The notes beneath the pieces were generated by a model, which was not told where the DNA came from, did not search any database, and was given only the letters and a program-made list of their open reading frames with translations. DNA of 64,000 nucleotides from Microbacterium sp. zg-B185. GTDB taxonomy: Bacteria; Actinomycetota; Actinomycetes; Actinomycetales; Microbacteriaceae. The translations under genes and the position numbers were made by a program. Positions 5,733 through 12,484 of the stretch are shown piece after piece. Location: positions 2,542,001 through 2,606,000 of the forward strand of contig NZ_CP126739.1 in the NCBI RefSeq assembly GCF_030246885.1. Reading direction: 5' to 3'. The stretch's first letter is position 1, and the number at the start of each line of letters is the position of its first letter.

Positions 5733-5822
5733 GATGGTCCGCGGCCCGCAAGGGCCACGGAGGATTCGCCTAGTGGCCTATGGCGCACGCTTGGAAAGCG
5801 TGTTGAGTGAAAGCTCTCAGGG

Positions 5823-5845
5823 GTTCGAATCCCCTATCCTCCGCC
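5823..5845 (+). other. Island attL core (tRNA-Ser 3' end)
   Basis: This 23-base segment covers the T loop to the acceptor 3' strand of the tRNA. It recurs at 12314-12336 with a single mismatch at 5835, the T of the T-stem closing pair. tRNA 3' ends are the usual targets of tyrosine integrases, and integration keeps the tRNA whole, as here. Confidence 0.85.
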
Positions 5846-5846
5846 A
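5832..5846 (+). repeat. 15-bp direct repeat, copy 1 (IS target duplication, tRNA 3' end plus CCA)
   Basis: CCCTATCCTCCGCCA occurs at 5832-5846, 7139-7153 and 8446-8460, flanking and separating the two IS copies. The base before copy 1 (C5831) differs from the base before the other two (A), which sets the repeat length. It is read as the target-site duplication of the IS481 element. Confidence 0.9.
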
Positions 5847-5850
5847 TGTG

Positions 5851-5887
5851 ATGTCTCGCGACATATGTCTCATATGTCGCGAGACAT
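5851..5887. repeat. Long palindrome in the IS left end, copy 1
   Basis: Arms of 17 bases (ATGTCTCGCGACATATG and its exact complement) around TCT. It starts 5 bases from the IS terminus and 4 bases from the transposase stop. It could end transcription of the transposase or shield it from read-through; no U-tract is present. The same structure lies at 7158-7194 in copy 2. Confidence 0.8.
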
Positions 5888-5890
5888 CTG

Positions 5891-7066
5891 TCATTTGTGG
5901 GGCCAGCGGCCGGGTGGGGTGAGTTGGTTGCGCCAGTAGCCCTGGGCGGGGTTTATGTGGTGTTCGCTGAGGATTTCGCCGGTTTCGAGGTGGGTCACGG
6001 TGACGGTGGTTTCGTCGCTGATCGCGAGGATGCGTTTGCCGGTGTGGTGTCGTCCGATGCCGAGGTGGTGCATGCGGCCGGCGCGTCGGATGCTGACGTG
6101 GCCGTCGGTGTCGACGCGGTCGTAGCGCAGCCGGTATCGGTCGGGCAGTCGTCCCTCGGCAGGGAGCGCTTTGGCGGTCGCTGCGTATGCCTGTGAGGGA
6201 GTTGCGCGATCCAGGGCTCGGTGCGGGCGGTGGTTGTTGTATGCGACGCGGAACCGGTCCAGCTGTGCTTGGAGCTCGAGGATCGTGGTCGCGGTGGGCT
6301 GCTGGGCGAGCCAGCGCTTCTGGGTCTGATGGAACCGTTCGATCTTGCCCTGGGTCTGCGGGTGTCCGGGTGAGCCGTTCTTCTGCTTGACCCCGAGGAC
6401 GGGCAGGAGGTGTTCGAACGCGTTGCGTCCTCCGCCGAACCGTGCCGTATAGACCCTGCCGTTGTCGGTGAGAGTCGAGGCGGGGATCCCGTGTTTGTCG
6501 GTCGCAGTCAGGAACGTGGTCACGACATCGTCACCGGTGACGGGGGTGTGGGCGGTGCAGGACAGCAGGAGCCGGGAGTGGTCATCGAGCCAGTTCAGGA
6601 TCTCCATGTCGGTTCCGTCGTTCAGGCGCCAGTGGGTGAAGTCGGATTGCCAGGTCTCGTTCGGTTGGGCGGCTTCGAACCGGACGTACGAGGAACGCGG
6701 GCGCTTACGCGGCTCCGGGGTGATCAGCCCTGCTCGAGTCAGGATGCGGTGGATCGTCGCGTGTGACGGGGCGTGCAACCCTTCGCGGTCCAGATGCCAG
6801 GAGATCGTGACCGGCCCGGCATCGAACCCGCGAGCGATCAGTTCAGCGCGGAGCTGTACGACGCGTTCGACAACCTCGGGGGGTGTCGCGTGCGGATTCG
6901 TCTTCGGTCGCCGCGACTGCGGATCGACGGCGTCGATACCGTCCTCCCGGTAACGGGCCAGCAACCGATGAAGCTGCCTCCGCGACAACCCATACTGCTC
7001 GGCCGCCGCGGCCACGGTGAGCTGCCCAGCGACGATCTTCAAGACCACGACCCGATGCTTCGACAT
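5891..7066 (-). CDS. IS481-family transposase, copy 1
   Basis: 391 residues. An N-terminal helix-turn-helix (AAAEQYGLSRRQLHRLLARY) precedes an rve/DDE catalytic core: first Asp in WQSDFTHW, second in LTDNGRVYTAR, Glu in KIERFHQTQKRWL. The length and the C-terminal region after YNNHRPHRALD are normal for the family, so it looks intact. The ATG at 7066 lies near the right end of the element. The translated product is identical to that of copy 2, which indicates recent duplication. Confidence 0.95.
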   Translation of the reverse strand: MSKHRVVVLKIVAGQLTVAAAAEQYGLSRRQLHRLLARYREDGIDAVDPQSRRPKTNPHATPPEVVERVVQLRAELIARGFDAGPVTISWHLDREGLHAPSHATIHRILTRAGLITPEPRKRPRSSYVRFEAAQPNETWQSDFTHWRLNDGTDMEILNWLDDHSRLLLSCTAHTPVTGDDVVTTFLTATDKHGIPASTLTDNGRVYTARFGGGRNAFEHLLPVLGVKQKNGSPGHPQTQGKIERFHQTQKRWLAQQPTATTILELQAQLDRFRVAYNNHRPHRALDRATPSQAYAATAKALPAEGRLPDRYRLRYDRVDTDGHVSIRRAGRMHHLGIGRHHTGKRILAISDETTVTVTHLETGEILSEHHINPAQGYWRNQLTPPGRWPHK

Positions 7067-7138
7067 GCATCGGACTGTGACCTATGACCCGAGACATGAG
7101 CGACACATCACCTGTGACATATGTCGTGAACCCAGGCA

Positions 7139-7153
7139 CCCTATCCTCCGCCA
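7139..7153 (+). repeat. 15-bp direct repeat, copy 2 (between the IS copies)
   Basis: The only DNA separating the right end of IS copy 1 from the left end of IS copy 2. It is the same 15 bases as the tRNA 3' end, so the array is IS - target - IS with a period of 1307 bases. Confidence 0.9.
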
Positions 7154-8445
7154 TGTGATGTCTCGCGACATATGTCTCATATGTCGCGAGACATCTGTCA
7201 TTTGTGGGGCCAGCGGCCGGGTGGGGTGAGTTGGTTGCGCCAGTAGCCCTGGGCGGGGTTTATGTGGTGTTCGCTGAGGATTTCGCCGGTTTCGAGGTGG
7301 GTCACGGTGACGGTGGTTTCGTCGCTGATCGCGAGGATGCGTTTGCCGGTGTGGTGTCGTCCGATGCCGAGGTGGTGCATGCGGCCGGCGCGTCGGATGC
7401 TGACGTGGCCGTCGGTGTCGACGCGGTCGTAGCGCAGCCGGTATCGGTCGGGCAGTCGTCCCTCGGCAGGGAGCGCTTTGGCGGTCGCTGCGTATGCCTG
7501 TGAGGGAGTTGCGCGATCCAGGGCTCGGTGCGGGCGGTGGTTGTTGTATGCGACGCGGAACCGGTCCAGCTGTGCTTGGAGCTCGAGGATCGTGGTCGCG
7601 GTGGGCTGCTGGGCGAGCCAGCGCTTCTGGGTCTGATGGAACCGTTCGATCTTGCCCTGGGTCTGCGGGTGTCCGGGTGAGCCGTTCTTCTGCTTGACCC
7701 CGAGGACGGGCAGGAGGTGTTCGAACGCGTTGCGTCCTCCGCCGAACCGTGCCGTATAGACCCTGCCGTTGTCGGTGAGAGTCGAGGCGGGGATCCCGTG
7801 TTTGTCGGTCGCAGTCAGGAACGTGGTCACGACATCGTCACCGGTGACGGGGGTGTGGGCGGTGCAGGACAGCAGGAGCCGGGAGTGGTCATCGAGCCAG
7901 TTCAGGATCTCCATGTCGGTTCCGTCGTTCAGGCGCCAGTGGGTGAAGTCGGATTGCCAGGTCTCGTTCGGTTGGGCGGCTTCGAACCGGACGTACGAGG
8001 AACGCGGGCGCTTACGCGGCTCCGGGGTGATCAGCCCTGCTCGAGTCAGGATGCGGTGGATCGTCGCGTGTGACGGGGCGTGCAACCCTTCGCGGTCCAG
8101 ATGCCAGGAGATCGTGACCGGCCCGGCATCGAACCCGCGAGCGATCAGTTCAGCGCGGAGCTGTACGACGCGTTCGACAACCTCGGGGGGTGTCGCGTGC
8201 GGATTCGTCTTCGGTCGCCGCGACTGCGGATCGACGGCGTCGATACCGTCCTCCCGGTAACGGGCCAGCAACCGATGAAGCTGCCTCCGCGACAACCCAT
8301 ACTGCTCGGCCGCCGCGGCCACGGTGAGCTGCCCAGCGACGATCTTCAAGACCACGACCCGATGCTTCGACATGCATCGGACTGTGACCTATGACCCGAG
8401 ACATGAGCGACACATCACCTGTGACATATGTCGTGAACCCAGGCA
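7154..8445 (-). mobile_element. IS481-family insertion sequence, copy 2 (1292 bp)
   Basis: An exact head-to-tail repeat of the element at 5847-7138, in the same orientation, with the same ends and the same 15-bp flank on each side. Perfect identity points to recent origin by tandem duplication or by repeat insertion at one target. An assembly artefact of the repeat must also be considered. Confidence 0.9.
7198..8373 (-). CDS. IS481-family transposase, copy 2
   Basis: 391 residues, identical to the copy-1 transposase, with the same helix-turn-helix and DDE motifs (WQSDFTHW, LTDNGR, KIERFH). Its upstream region is the right end of copy 2, next to the island's integrase remnant. Confidence 0.95.
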   Translation of the reverse strand: MSKHRVVVLKIVAGQLTVAAAAEQYGLSRRQLHRLLARYREDGIDAVDPQSRRPKTNPHATPPEVVERVVQLRAELIARGFDAGPVTISWHLDREGLHAPSHATIHRILTRAGLITPEPRKRPRSSYVRFEAAQPNETWQSDFTHWRLNDGTDMEILNWLDDHSRLLLSCTAHTPVTGDDVVTTFLTATDKHGIPASTLTDNGRVYTARFGGGRNAFEHLLPVLGVKQKNGSPGHPQTQGKIERFHQTQKRWLAQQPTATTILELQAQLDRFRVAYNNHRPHRALDRATPSQAYAATAKALPAEGRLPDRYRLRYDRVDTDGHVSIRRAGRMHHLGIGRHHTGKRILAISDETTVTVTHLETGEILSEHHINPAQGYWRNQLTPPGRWPHK

Positions 8446-8460
8446 CCCTATCCTCCGCCA
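8446..8460 (+). repeat. 15-bp direct repeat, copy 3 (island side)
   Basis: Third copy of the tRNA-end 15-mer, joining the IS array to island DNA. Without the IS copies this base run would be the tRNA end continuing directly into island sequence at 8461. Confidence 0.9.
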
Positions 8461-8472
8461 ATCTGGAACAAG

Positions 8473-8515
8473 GCCCGATCAGGTGTTTCCTGCGTGCGCA
8501 GGACGCCCGATCAGG
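8473..8515. promoter_or_regulatory. Integrase-proximal repeat cluster
   Basis: GCCCGATCAGG occurs at 8473-8483 and again at 8505-8515, a 32-base spacing close to three helical turns. Between them lies the 14-base palindrome CCTGCGTGCGCAGG-like at 8489-8502. This lies between the attachment core and the integrase stub, where arm-type integrase or excisionase sites are normally found. That role is inference. Confidence 0.4.
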
Positions 8516-8516
8516 C

Positions 8517-8540
8517 CTAATGCATGAATTCATGCATTAG
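8517..8540. repeat. 24-bp perfect palindrome at the left end of the island
   Basis: Centred on GAATTC, with arms CTAATGCATGAA. A related palindrome (ATGCATGA-TT-TCATGCAT) lies at 12175-12192 near the other island end; 18 of 19 bases match between 8521-8539 and 12176-12194. The pairing suggests a shared binding site for an island protein or for recombination. Confidence 0.6.
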
Positions 8541-8551
8541 CGGGTTTGGCG

Positions 8552-8836
8552 TCAGCCGCCCGCGCCCGCCATGAGACCGCGGAGCGTGTCCACGGCGCCC
8601 CTCTGCATCGTCGGCGTCACGTGGCTGTAAATGTCCATCGTCATGGAAATATCGGCGTGTCCGAGGCGTTCCTGAACGATCTTCGGATTCACGCCCGCTT
8701 CCATGAGAAGCGTCGCATGCGTGTGACGTAGTCCCTTCAGCGTGAGCGGGCCGGGGGCATCCGCCCCGAGCGCGACACGGTGCGCCACAACGCGTCGTGA
8801 CGCCGCCTCGGCCTCGGCGGGTGTCGGCGCCCTCGA
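8552..8836 (-). pseudogene. Tyrosine recombinase (phage integrase), C-terminal remnant
   Basis: Only about the last 95 residues remain. GLRHTHATLLMEAG contains the HxxR box, and VQERLGHADISMTMDIYSHV contains the second conserved His (LGH) and the catalytic Tyr (IYSH). In-frame sequence continues upstream to a TAA at about 8837-8839, with no N-terminal arm-binding or core-binding domain and no first catalytic Arg. GTG at 8788 could start a fragment. The stub lies beside attL pointing at the tRNA, the usual integrase position. It is judged non-functional. Confidence 0.85.
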
Positions 8837-9287
8837 CGTTTACGAAAAGGGGCCGATCGGCTATCGCGAAGTCACGCGACTGTCGGGGCGGAACGGGCGG
8901 ATCGACGGATCGACGACCGGGCGCGAACCTGTACCGTACGCCGAGTGGGCGCACAGCGCCCGCCTGCGGGACGCCCGGCAACGCGTAGACGGACGCGAGC
9001 GGCGCGTCGCGTTCGAGCGGACGCACATCATCCCGTGCGACGCGTGCGGCGTGCGTGACATGCGCGCTAGGTTCCGCGTCGTGAGCGTCCGCGATCGACT
9101 CGCCGCCGTGTGTGCGGACTGCGCCCCTGGGATCGAGGCCGCCGCGCGACGCCTCGACCTGCTTCCCGACGGTCGAACGCGCGCGGCCGCACAGGACGCC
9201 TTGATCACGCGCCTGTTGGAAGACTCGGACGACGTCGAGGCCGACCTGACGGCCGCCGACGTCGCCCGAGTGGGGGGCGCATCATGA
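8742..9287 (+). CDS. Zinc-ribbon protein of the island (5' end uncertain)
   Basis: The recognisable part is the C-terminal half: CDACG, then about 23 residues later CADC, a CxxC...CxxC zinc ribbon, followed by helices (AAAQDALITRLLEDSDD). The open frame reaches back to a GTG at 8742. Its first 90 or so bases run antisense to the integrase stub and read as low-complexity sequence, so the true start is probably further in, or the 5' end was lost in the same deletion. The stop overlaps the next start as ATGA. Small zinc-ribbon proteins are common in actinophage and satellite genomes. Function unknown. Confidence 0.5.
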   Translation: MSGPGASAPSATRCATTRRDAASASAGVGALDVYEKGPIGYREVTRLSGRNGRIDGSTTGREPVPYAEWAHSARLRDARQRVDGRERRVAFERTHIIPCDACGVRDMRARFRVVSVRDRLAAVCADCAPGIEAAARRLDLLPDGRTRAAAQDALITRLLEDSDDVEADLTAADVARVGGAS

Positions 9288-10042
9288 CTCGCCTGACAGT
9301 CGCCGAAGCGCCGACCGTTCATCCTCGCCTGCTCGACGTTGCGAATGGGATCGCTGCGACCGGCGGGATCGCGATCGTCGGGCGCCCGGCGCCCTGGGGC
9401 GAGCGGTCTCCGACGCACCTCGAACGATTCACGCCGCACGCGTTCCTGAACCGACTTCCGCCGCTGCTACTCGCCGAGCACACAGGACCGGCCCGCGCCG
9501 CCGACCTGATCGCGGACGGGATCGCGAGCGAATCGTCGAGGCATGGATTCGACGCCGTGTGGAGCTTGCACGACACATTCACCGCCGTCGATCACCTGTT
9601 CGGATACCTCGCCGACGGAATCAGCGGGCTCTCGGTCGAAACGCGCGTCAGCGGCTCCCGGTTCACGTCCAGCCTCGCTACCGGTCCCGTGCGCGAGGTC
9701 GATACCGCGACTATGTTCGCCGTCGCCGTCGTCGACGATCCGTCGTATCCGTCGGCGCGAATCCTGCATGTCGTCACGCCCGACGCGCTGTGGTCGTACA
9801 GCCCCGAGGCCGGGCGCCTAGGGACGACCGACAACGCCGTCGGGGCTGCCCTCGATGCGCGCATGCGTGCGCGCAACGCCGATCGCGCTCGCGAGACCGC
9901 GGCGTTCTCAGACCGGATCGCCGACGCCCTGGCGGGGCGCACCGACGCGGCGTCGGCGATCCGCTCCGACCGCCGTCCGAATCACGACCACGCGCCGGTC
10001 GAGACAGTGGCAACCGCGCTCGGCGGATTCACGTTGCGCTAG
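9284..10042 (+). CDS. HK97-type prohead protease-like protein
   Basis: 252 residues. The pattern follows caudoviral prohead proteases (peptidase S78): strand GGIAIVGRPAPWGE, then LERFTPHAF, LLLAEHTG with candidate catalytic His66, and GISGLSVETRV with candidate Ser117. AVAVVDDPSYPSARI follows in the position where a proline-rich block ends the fold. In phages this enzyme cleaves scaffold and capsid precursors during head maturation. The start ATG at 9284 has a G-rich ribosome site and overlaps the zinc-ribbon stop. No capsid, portal or terminase gene is nearby, so the gene is stranded. The assignment is by motif only. Confidence 0.7.
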   Translation: MTRLTVAEAPTVHPRLLDVANGIAATGGIAIVGRPAPWGERSPTHLERFTPHAFLNRLPPLLLAEHTGPARAADLIADGIASESSRHGFDAVWSLHDTFTAVDHLFGYLADGISGLSVETRVSGSRFTSSLATGPVREVDTATMFAVAVVDDPSYPSARILHVVTPDALWSYSPEAGRLGTTDNAVGAALDARMRARNADRARETAAFSDRIADALAGRTDAASAIRSDRRPNHDHAPVETVATALGGFTLR

Positions 10043-10146
10043 CAGCGATCGACAGCCCCTATGCAATATTCACGGTCGGCGGGAGATCGGAAGCAGTCGC
10101 CGACGCATCACCGGCTTGGATCAACCTCACGGACAAACGCGCTGAC

Positions 10147-10722
10147 TCAAGGCAGCACAAGCATGAGCAGCGCTTCGAATCGCAGGAGGGCGCGGTCGAG
10201 GCTTGGACTTCTTCCGCGTGCCACGTCAAGATCCATTCGAGACGTAAGACGCGGCTGCCAAGTGGGCTTGACGTACTTCGAAGGATGCAAGGCGCCCTTG
10301 ATCGAAGTCTGACCGCTCATCGTCTCTTCGTAGGTCAAGTCGAGCTCAAGCGTTTCTGCAGAGGCGTATATCCAGTCTTCGAAGTCACCGTCAGCAAGGG
10401 CTATGACGACAGGCTTGCCCGTCGCGGAGGCGGCGCGGCGCGCCAGGTCGACTCCGAGTTGTGCAACACAATCGCCCTCGCCGTCGAGTAGGACGAAAAC
10501 GCCGACGCATCCAGGACGCGCCGCCGCCGCAGCGACGAACTTTTCTAGGCCGCCATCGACGAGCGCCTTGTCCCTGCCGTGGGCAGGGATTGCCTTGCCG
10601 AGCATGTCCGCGAAGACGCCGAGTGACTCCATGTGTTTTCGCAGGAGGACCGGCGCCGCATTACGATCGCCAGCACCTTCGACCACGAGGCCGACGTGCG
10701 GCGCTTCATATGACGCGGTCAA
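10147..10722 (-). CDS. DUF4276 / Toprim-like protein of a two-gene ATPase module
   Basis: 191 residues, the second gene of the pair. The fold signature is Toprim-like: GLVVEGAGD with Glu15, a hydrophobic strand into LLDGEGD with acidic D80-x-E82-x-D84, then ALADGDFEDWIYAS with E115/D116. The family-typical end is SPSLDRALLRFEALL. OLD and PARIS effectors use this type of acidic centre for metal-dependent cleavage; nuclease activity here is inference. The start is TTG at 10722, overlapping the ATPase stop as TTGA, with no alternative in-frame ATG. The coupling argues for a fixed stoichiometry of the two proteins. Confidence 0.8.
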   Translation of the reverse strand: MTASYEAPHVGLVVEGAGDRNAAPVLLRKHMESLGVFADMLGKAIPAHGRDKALVDGGLEKFVAAAAARPGCVGVFVLLDGEGDCVAQLGVDLARRAASATGKPVVIALADGDFEDWIYASAETLELDLTYEETMSGQTSIKGALHPSKYVKPTWQPRLTSRMDLDVARGRSPSLDRALLRFEALLMLVLP

Positions 10723-11912
10723 AGCGCGTCCACGTCAAGCGCGTCTGACCGGAGTAGCTCGCCGGGCGTTACTAGTCCGGAACGCACCGTCGCGACGGTG
10801 TGGGGCGCGACGACGCCGACATGCGATTGACCATTCTCCCCCCAGACAACCCGGAGCGACTCGACGTCAATCGAGTCCACGATGTCGGCGCTGTGTGTCG
10901 TGACGACTATCTGAGAGCGCTCCGACTCCTGCGCCAGGATGTCCATCAAGGTGCGAAGCGCGCCCAGGTGGATTGCTACCTCCGGTTCTTCAATCACGAG
11001 GAGGTTCGGGCGAGCGGGCTGCTTCATAGCGAGCAAGATGCTGAACGCACGCAAAGTGCCGTCCGACATCTGCTTCGCGTAGAACGCCCGATTTCCGCTC
11101 TCCTGACTTTGCGTGAATCGGAAAGTCTGCCGATCGGCCAACCGCTGAATCTCAACACGAACGATGCCTGGCACGAGCGCGCTCAATTCGTCGATTAACT
11201 CAGCACGACTCTCGGGGCTCAGCAGCTCGAAAAGACTTGTCGCATTCGATCCGTCCGGCTCGAAGTCGCGCTGGGACGACGGCAACTGTAGGTCCGCCAC
11301 CATCGCCGGGTTTATCTCCACGGTCTGCATCGTCTGCAAGACCTGACTTACGATGAATCCTGCGAATCCGCCGGACGCTGACATCGCGCTCTGCCCGGGC
11401 GGCACGGGGAAGGTGTGACGACGAATCCCACTCTTCGACTCCTCATCTGGTTCTTCAGAGGTCACCTTGCTGCCGTCGCTTGAGAGGCTGAATCTTCGAT
11501 CGCCGATCCATACTTGTGCGACCTCAGACTTGACGCGGTACGACCTGGGATTTACTGCGCCCAGCTTGATCTCGTAGAACGATTCTCGGTCGCTTCCGAT
11601 GGTGTGAAACTCGATCCGCAAGCTTGGGTCGTACGGGTGGCCGGAACTCCTATGGCGAAGCTGATCGAAGCCGCCGCGACGCGCCAGAGCGACGGGCAAG
11701 CCGTGGATGGGGATTTCACGAAGAAGCTTGATCGCCGCAACGAGATTAGATTTCCCGCTCGCGTTCGGCCCGACTAGCGCGATCAAGTCGGCGAGTTCAA
11801 GTCGAGCGTGCTTGTAGGACAAGAAGTTGGTCAACTCCAAAGCGGTGAATCTGACTGGAATCGTCCGGCCGGACTCGACTTGCTCCTCAGCGGAGACGTC
11901 AGCGATGCTCAT
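10719..11912 (-). CDS. SMC/ABC-type AAA ATPase of candidate defence module
   Basis: 397 residues and apparently complete. Walker A is GPNASGKSN at 48-56. A long variable middle (90-270) follows. The ABC signature variant is MSDGT at 282-286, Walker B is LLVIEEPE at 304-311, and the switch His is in TTHSAD at 338-343. This is the AAA_15/AAA_21 class that powers OLD, PARIS and related anti-phage systems, with no Toprim domain in the same chain; the partner gene supplies it. It is first in its operon, facing inward from the right island end. Codon choice looks less GC-rich than the flanking genes. The defence role is inferred from domain pairing and location. Confidence 0.85.
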   Translation of the reverse strand: MSIADVSAEEQVESGRTIPVRFTALELTNFLSYKHARLELADLIALVGPNASGKSNLVAAIKLLREIPIHGLPVALARRGGFDQLRHRSSGHPYDPSLRIEFHTIGSDRESFYEIKLGAVNPRSYRVKSEVAQVWIGDRRFSLSSDGSKVTSEEPDEESKSGIRRHTFPVPPGQSAMSASGGFAGFIVSQVLQTMQTVEINPAMVADLQLPSSQRDFEPDGSNATSLFELLSPESRAELIDELSALVPGIVRVEIQRLADRQTFRFTQSQESGNRAFYAKQMSDGTLRAFSILLAMKQPARPNLLVIEEPEVAIHLGALRTLMDILAQESERSQIVVTTHSADIVDSIDVESLRVVWGENGQSHVGVVAPHTVATVRSGLVTPGELLRSDALDVDAL

Positions 11913-12174
11913 CGCGTCAGAGTATCTCAGCCGTCGAAATCGTCCTGAGGCAAGTTCTCGTTGCGCGTTGCATCGGTGCCGAGGCGATGCCTGAGAGTCC
12001 TGGCTCCGACTCGGAATCGACGAGGGCTGTTAGCGAGCAGGAAACCGTCAGAGCGGCGGCGCCCGATCGTCGACGGCGATGACGCCGAACGTTGTCAAGG
12101 CATGCGGAAGTGGTCACATTCGCACCTAGAAATAGCGGTCAGGCCACTCTCGCGTACGCGGCTGATGCATCACC

Positions 12175-12192
12175 ATGCATGATTTCATGCAT
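12175..12192. repeat. Hyphenated palindrome at the right end of the island
   Basis: ATGCATGA-TT-TCATGCAT, 8-base perfect arms. Bases 12176-12194 match 8521-8539 at 18 of 19 positions. It lies about 260 bases upstream of the ATPase start and 120 bases inside attR, so it could be an operator of the module or an end-specific recombination site. Confidence 0.55.
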
Positions 12193-12313
12193 TACCGACC
12201 GTGCATGAGGACGTATCTAGCTACGCAACCAAGCTCGACATGTACTCGTAAATGCCTGATGGGCGGGTGTTCTGAGGCCCGCAATGCATCCTAATAGATG
12301 CGTGGACTTCACA

Positions 12314-12336
12314 GTTCGAATCCCCCATCCTCCGCC
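12314..12336 (+). other. Island attR core
   Basis: A 23-base copy of the tRNA-Ser 3' end (22 of 23 identical to 5823-5845), lacking the rest of the tRNA. The mismatch would break the T-stem pair, consistent with no selection on this copy. It marks the right boundary of the island. Confidence 0.85.
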
Positions 12337-12484
12337 GCTCCGATCCCAGTGCTTTCAAGGGATTTTCCGTCCGTCAACGTCGCGTGACGCGCCCCCTGAC
12401 ACAGTTAAGGCCGATTTCGACCCCTTGTGAAGCCTGGTGCCATCCGTGCTCCCCAGCCATGGCGGCTCCGCCATACCGTGGGGG

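Follow-up and report, generated by a model that had tools for sequence, protein, structure and literature searches.

A HEC-01 gene pair encoding an OLD/SMC-type ATPase and a predicted Toprim-fold DUF4276 protein on a tRNA-Ser island of Microbacterium sp. zg-B185

A 64,000-nucleotide stretch of Microbacterium sp. zg-B185 (contig NZ_CP126739.1, positions 2,542,001 to 2,606,000), hereafter the window, carries two overlapping reverse-strand genes that encode an OLD/SMC-type ABC ATPase and a DUF4276 protein. The open reading frame (ORF) of the ATPase lies at 10719-11912 (-), starts with ATG and encodes 397 amino acids. The partner ORF at 10147-10722 (-) encodes 191 amino acids, and its TTG start codon sits within the ATPase stop, with TTGA shared at 10719-10722 (-). 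This overlap is likely to couple the translation of both genes. The ATPase contains the Walker A motif GPNASGKSN (residues 48-56), the signature MSDGT (282-286), the Walker B motif LLVIEEPE (304-311), and TTHSAD (338-343), which includes H340. The coordinates, the overlap, and the motif positions given in an initial annotation of this DNA were all correct on recheck. In Pfam, the ATPase matched AAA_21 (E 3e-31) and was placed in AAA_21/AAA_15. The DUF4276 identity of the partner also held, since PF14103 scored 33.6 bits against a cut-off of 30.2, and it was the sole Pfam family at E ≤ 1 among 24,736 models. No match for the partner was found in NCBIfam, PHROGs, or phage records, and one of 72,556 plasmid records, a Streptomyces plasmid, matched it at 31%.

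Both proteins were compared with PADLOC-DB 2.0.0. The best match of the ATPase was HEC-01A (PDLC04178, E 3.4e-80, model positions 7-382 of 399), and the next models without a HEC-01 label were PDC-M07A (7.6e-30) and AriA (2e-28). The best match of the partner was HEC-01B (PDLC04196, E 1.7e-23), and all four of its PADLOC matches at E ≤ 1 carry the HEC-01B label. The HEC-01 labels are not clean, because PDLC04144, a model labelled HEC-01B, matched the ATPase at 1.3e-26. The ATPase, the DUF4276 partner, and their same-strand adjacency were all present, the adjacency being judged from the TTGA overlap and not from PADLOC's own system rule. By these model matches, the pair is HEC-01, a candidate anti-phage system catalogued in PADLOC, and a member of a known family; nothing was found that sets it apart from the catalogued system. 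The initial annotation had read the locus as an ATPase/Toprim defence module and knew of no named system with a DUF4276 partner. Its outline stands, and the system it took to be unnamed is the one for which PADLOC-DB has HEC-01A and HEC-01B. The available text of PMC12988326 expands HEC as Hma-embedded candidate, credits the naming to the preprint 10.1101/2024.01.29.577857, and credits several HECs including HEC-06 with antiviral activity; HEC-01 is not mentioned in that text. As a system name, HEC-01 appears in an annotation of Desulfovibrio piger (available text of PMC12724379). In the open-licence literature searched, the term DUF4276 was not found, and HEC-01 is catalogued with no published test or mechanism found.

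The recurrence of the pair was examined in other genomes, a search proposed in the initial annotation, and the pairing recurred. DUF4276 was present in 23 of 296 genomes of the class, at 24 loci including the window. An ATPase homologue, scored by phmmer at E < 1e-3, adjoined DUF4276 at 21 of these 24 loci (20/23 without the window). The class loci without an ATPase match were L009, whose contig begins inside the gene, L013, where a 490-codon frame with no Pfam match lies upstream of DUF4276, and L017. An independent scan of loci from named genomes found a same-strand ATPase directly upstream in 12/12; these were chiefly from Actinomycetota, together with a Chloroflexi bin whose contig is cut within the ATPase and a Hydrogenophaga locus at 26-33% identity. 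Within the genus, DUF4276 occurred in 4 of 247 genomes and was paired in all four, once weakly (E 4e-5), and no same-genus control locus had such an ATPase (0/18 at 2.5-4 kb and 0/9 at 20 kb). Four bases was the commonest gene overlap (9 of 15 related pairs, with start codons guessed). Moreover, the pairwise distances of both proteins correlated, with r of 0.94 for 14 pairs and 0.73 for 12 close pairs (permutation test, 0/5000), which fits co-inheritance and is no proof of contact. Judged by gene order and divergence, the ATPase and its DUF4276 partner form a unit. HEC-01A searched alone was found in 45 of 296 genomes; this number was not used as a system count because the search also catches ATPases without a DUF4276 match.

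At L018 (G087:C9, 1-1956 (+)), the ATPase and DUF4276 profile residues 54-191 lay in one uninterrupted frame, with a DUF4276 match of 29.6 bits, just below the Pfam cut-off. Since the match there lacks the first strand and its catalytic Glu, the frame may reflect either a naturally fused gene or a change of frame from one gene to the other, and no conclusion was based on it. The genome that holds the window has no other DUF4276 match, although it encodes a second HEC-01A-like ATPase (L062, C1:1068589-1069611, 124 bits), and similar ATPases occur in two same-genus genomes. The L062 gene may stand alone or belong to a further ATPase-effector pair. In addition, L024 (G132:C1:1909839-1910990) is a second HEC-01 copy in one genome, with one in-frame TGA in the ATPase match.

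The partner carries E15, D80, E82, D84, and E115 at the positions that the initial annotation had assigned to a Toprim-like acidic centre. Among close homologues (alignment A2, 114 rows including the window), E15, D80, and E115 were invariant. A diverse alignment comprised 23 rows; L006, L009, L011, L015, L017, L018, and L019, seven of the 23 non-window class loci, were left out as partial matches or for uncertain N-termini. In this alignment E15, D80, E115, and W117 were invariant (23/23), and an acid was present at position 19 in 21 rows, at position 82 in 20, and at position 84 in just 14. Therefore, D84 probably does not belong to the centre. E15 and D80 follow the Toprim pattern of a catalytic Glu after strand 1 and a D-x-D after strand 3, the second acid being a Glu (E82), and the predicted fold was of the alpha/beta Toprim type. 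Foldseek of the partner model against the PDB gave no match at E ≤ 0.001, and phmmer and profile searches of PDB sequences with the partner returned no Toprim protein. What the analysis usefully adds is a Toprim assignment that names the residues of a proposed two-metal centre, giving DUF4276 a specific predicted chemistry.

The pair sits on an island of 6,491 bp (5846..12336) bounded by 23-bp repeats. The attL-like repeat (5823..5845 (+)) is the 3' end of tRNA-Ser(GGA) (5759-5846) and shares 22 of 23 bases with the attR-like repeat (12314..12336 (+)). In relatives, the flank beyond the second repeat directly follows the same tRNA: positions 12314-12436 matched the tRNA 3' end and flank of L060 (G314) at 88.6% over 123 bp, and the flank gave a 54-bp match to L061 (G306). 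The repeat and this flank therefore place the pair within the insert. The tRNA island described in the initial annotation was thus confirmed with both ends located, and the locus is an example of HEC-01 for which the limits of the island are resolved to the length of the 23-bp repeat.

Apart from the pair, the island contains two IS481-like elements, an integrase remnant, and ORFs without family matches. The integrase C-terminal remnant (8567..8794 (-), 76 codons; PHROG integrase 2.1e-23 on ORF 8552-8788) is 56-63% identical to the C-terminal region of integrases that two relatives carry close to the same tRNA. The two insertion sequences are arranged head to tail at 5847..8445 (-) (Pfam rve and LZ_Tnp_IS481; transposases 5891-7066 and 7198-8373), in identical repeat units of 1,307 bp, 2.6 kb together. 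Within 5832-8460, each unit consists of CCCTATCCTCCGCCA (15 bp, tRNA-Ser 3' end) followed by an IS481-like element, and a third copy of this 15-bp sequence follows the second element. The insertion sequence seems to have entered the tRNA end, or att core, twice. No Pfam (E 0.01) or PHROG (E 0.001) match was found for ORFs 9110-10042 (+) and 8742-9287 (+), the former of which presumably resembles a phage prohead protease by eye. Two GAF-ANTAR genes lie beyond the second repeat. In G314 and G306, integrases lie downstream of the same tRNA, and partial copies of the tRNA-Ser 3' end recur at multiple sites 26-51 kb away. Other elements thus use this tRNA in relatives, and the copies suggest that it is a frequent target of integration in the genus.

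The location on a small island that also holds insertion sequences and what is left of an integrase, together with the close pairing of ATPase and partner, would also suit a conflict or addiction module, in which a toxin and an ATPase antitoxin mainly stabilise the island and phage defence is secondary. We regard this as improbable, because the same gating logic would give phage defence too, and the PADLOC name, as expanded in the available text of PMC12988326, points to defence loci. The island position also argues against a cellular, non-defence OLD-like enzyme comparable with archaeal Cran1. According to the available text of PMC12796447, cell-cycle roles are possible for OLD-family enzymes, but Cran1 is conserved across Sulfolobales, whereas DUF4276 occurred in only 4 of 247 genomes of the genus. 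We give this explanation very little credence.

The neighbourhoods of other HEC-01 loci were also examined. A tRNA gene lay no more than about 3 kb from the two genes at three of 12 fetched loci (L036, L039, and L041), and L039 had integrase-like matches beside the tRNA. No tRNA was found within 20 kb around the same-genus copies L082 and L083, two of the three other genus copies (the third being G699), and L082 showed integrase-like matches despite this. For the 12 loci, 107 ORFs hand-chosen from 170 picked were scanned with defence models at E ≤ 1e-10, leaving out the pair's own genes and the outer ORFs. Matches were found to PDC-S07 (at least 2 ORFs), E1-E2 (1), and mad2 (1). Further, among the matches listed, at least one ORF each matched a type II/III methylase, PDC-S13 (3e-119), PDC-S05, Specificity_I, mad2, and Cas3g. 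These matches do not establish an enrichment, since the ORFs were not assigned to loci and no control neighbourhoods were scanned. At L044 (a Hydrogenophaga metagenome-assembled genome, 845-10540), a distant HEC-01 pair lies directly downstream of ResIII and N6_N4_Mtase genes, with BRO-N and NYN-domain genes between these two.

The pair is, in our judgement, probably a two-gene OLD/PARIS-like defence module in which an ATPase controls a Toprim nuclease, with no firm choice of substrate. Related systems known to act in this manner are PARIS and OLD/Gabija. We infer the following course for it. HEC-01A would act as sensor and gate, and HEC-01B would be a small metal-dependent Toprim nuclease that binds two metals, metal A through E15 and D80/E82 and metal B through D19 and E115. 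In the resting cell, the ATPase would form a complex with the nuclease and keep it inactive. A phage-made trigger or an altered nucleotide state would free or activate the nuclease, which would cut nucleic acid, either host tRNA (AriB-like) or DNA (OLD-like), and this cleavage would stop growth before phage release. Alternatively, the Toprim might cut incoming DNA while the ATPase recognises DNA ends or structures like SMC/Rad50 heads, making the pair a restriction-like or back-up module without suicide. However, PtuA, which ranked first in Foldseek of the ATPase fold, also uses an SMC-type head, and therefore DNA binding does not follow from the head type. In addition, the secondary structure of the ATPase model has no long coiled coil. 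This alternative appears unlikely.

Within the preferred reading of a gated nuclease, we tentatively suggest that HEC-01 may be a further two-gene OLD class, in which a Toprim of about 190 residues (DUF4276), held by the ATPase, would once freed cut host tRNA or other RNA, and which would read phage signals that PARIS does not. If true, the DUF4276 proteins would represent a widespread family of Toprim nucleases that serve in defence and share the two-metal centre E15/D19/D80/E82/E115. The predicted fold, catalytic residues, and recurrent pairing make HEC-01 directly testable as a relative of OLD and PARIS.

PARIS triggering by Ocr leads to tRNA cleavage, and AriB, a DUF4435 Toprim as the initial annotation also stated, cuts host tRNA. 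Like the present pair, PARIS (AriA/AriB) has an OLD-type ABC ATPase and a Toprim nuclease on separate genes, and the first Toprim Glu of the partner falls, by offset, on AriB E26. The DUF4276 partner has 191 residues, whereas 8ux9_A, taken as AriB because 8ux9_B is AriA, has 306, and the ATPase matched AriA models at 2e-28 compared with 3.4e-80 for HEC-01A. PARIS membership was rejected, as the partner matched only DUF4276 in Pfam and only HEC-01B in PADLOC, and not an AriB-type DUF4435. OLD and Gabija enzymes cut DNA directly. The OLD nucleases of class 1 (P2/TsOLD) and class 2 (GajA) are single chains, in contrast to the two proteins of HEC-01, and membership in these classes was rejected given two ORFs with a stop/start overlap. 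Gabija was also rejected, since no helicase domain (GajB is UvrD-like) was found in the neighbouring ORFs scanned. PARIS is called OLD class 4 in the available text of PMC12796447.

WonAB, PD-T4-4, and the PtuAB pairs of Septu and retrons resemble HEC-01 in combining an ABC ATPase and a nuclease in two genes. PtuB is an HNH nuclease, and by PDB structure titles the retron Ptu nuclease is also HNH, in contrast to the predicted Toprim of HEC-01. In the AbiL comparison, the ATPase matched AbiLi at 9.4e-20 and the partner matched only HEC-01B, with the presence of AbiLii in the library unconfirmed. According to the available text of PMC12137116, WonAB consists of an OLD-ABC ATPase and a nuclease, and the WonB and PD-T4-4 nucleases are PD-(D/E)xK enzymes, again unlike the predicted Toprim. 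The string 'DUF42' is absent from the available text of PMC12839542, where DUF4276 may stand under another name. The TOPRIM-linked OLD-ABC modules described there, credited to Krishnan et al. 2020, share the plan of HEC-01, with an OLD-ABC ATPase beside a Toprim or other nuclease, and as a general class such modules are thus already described.
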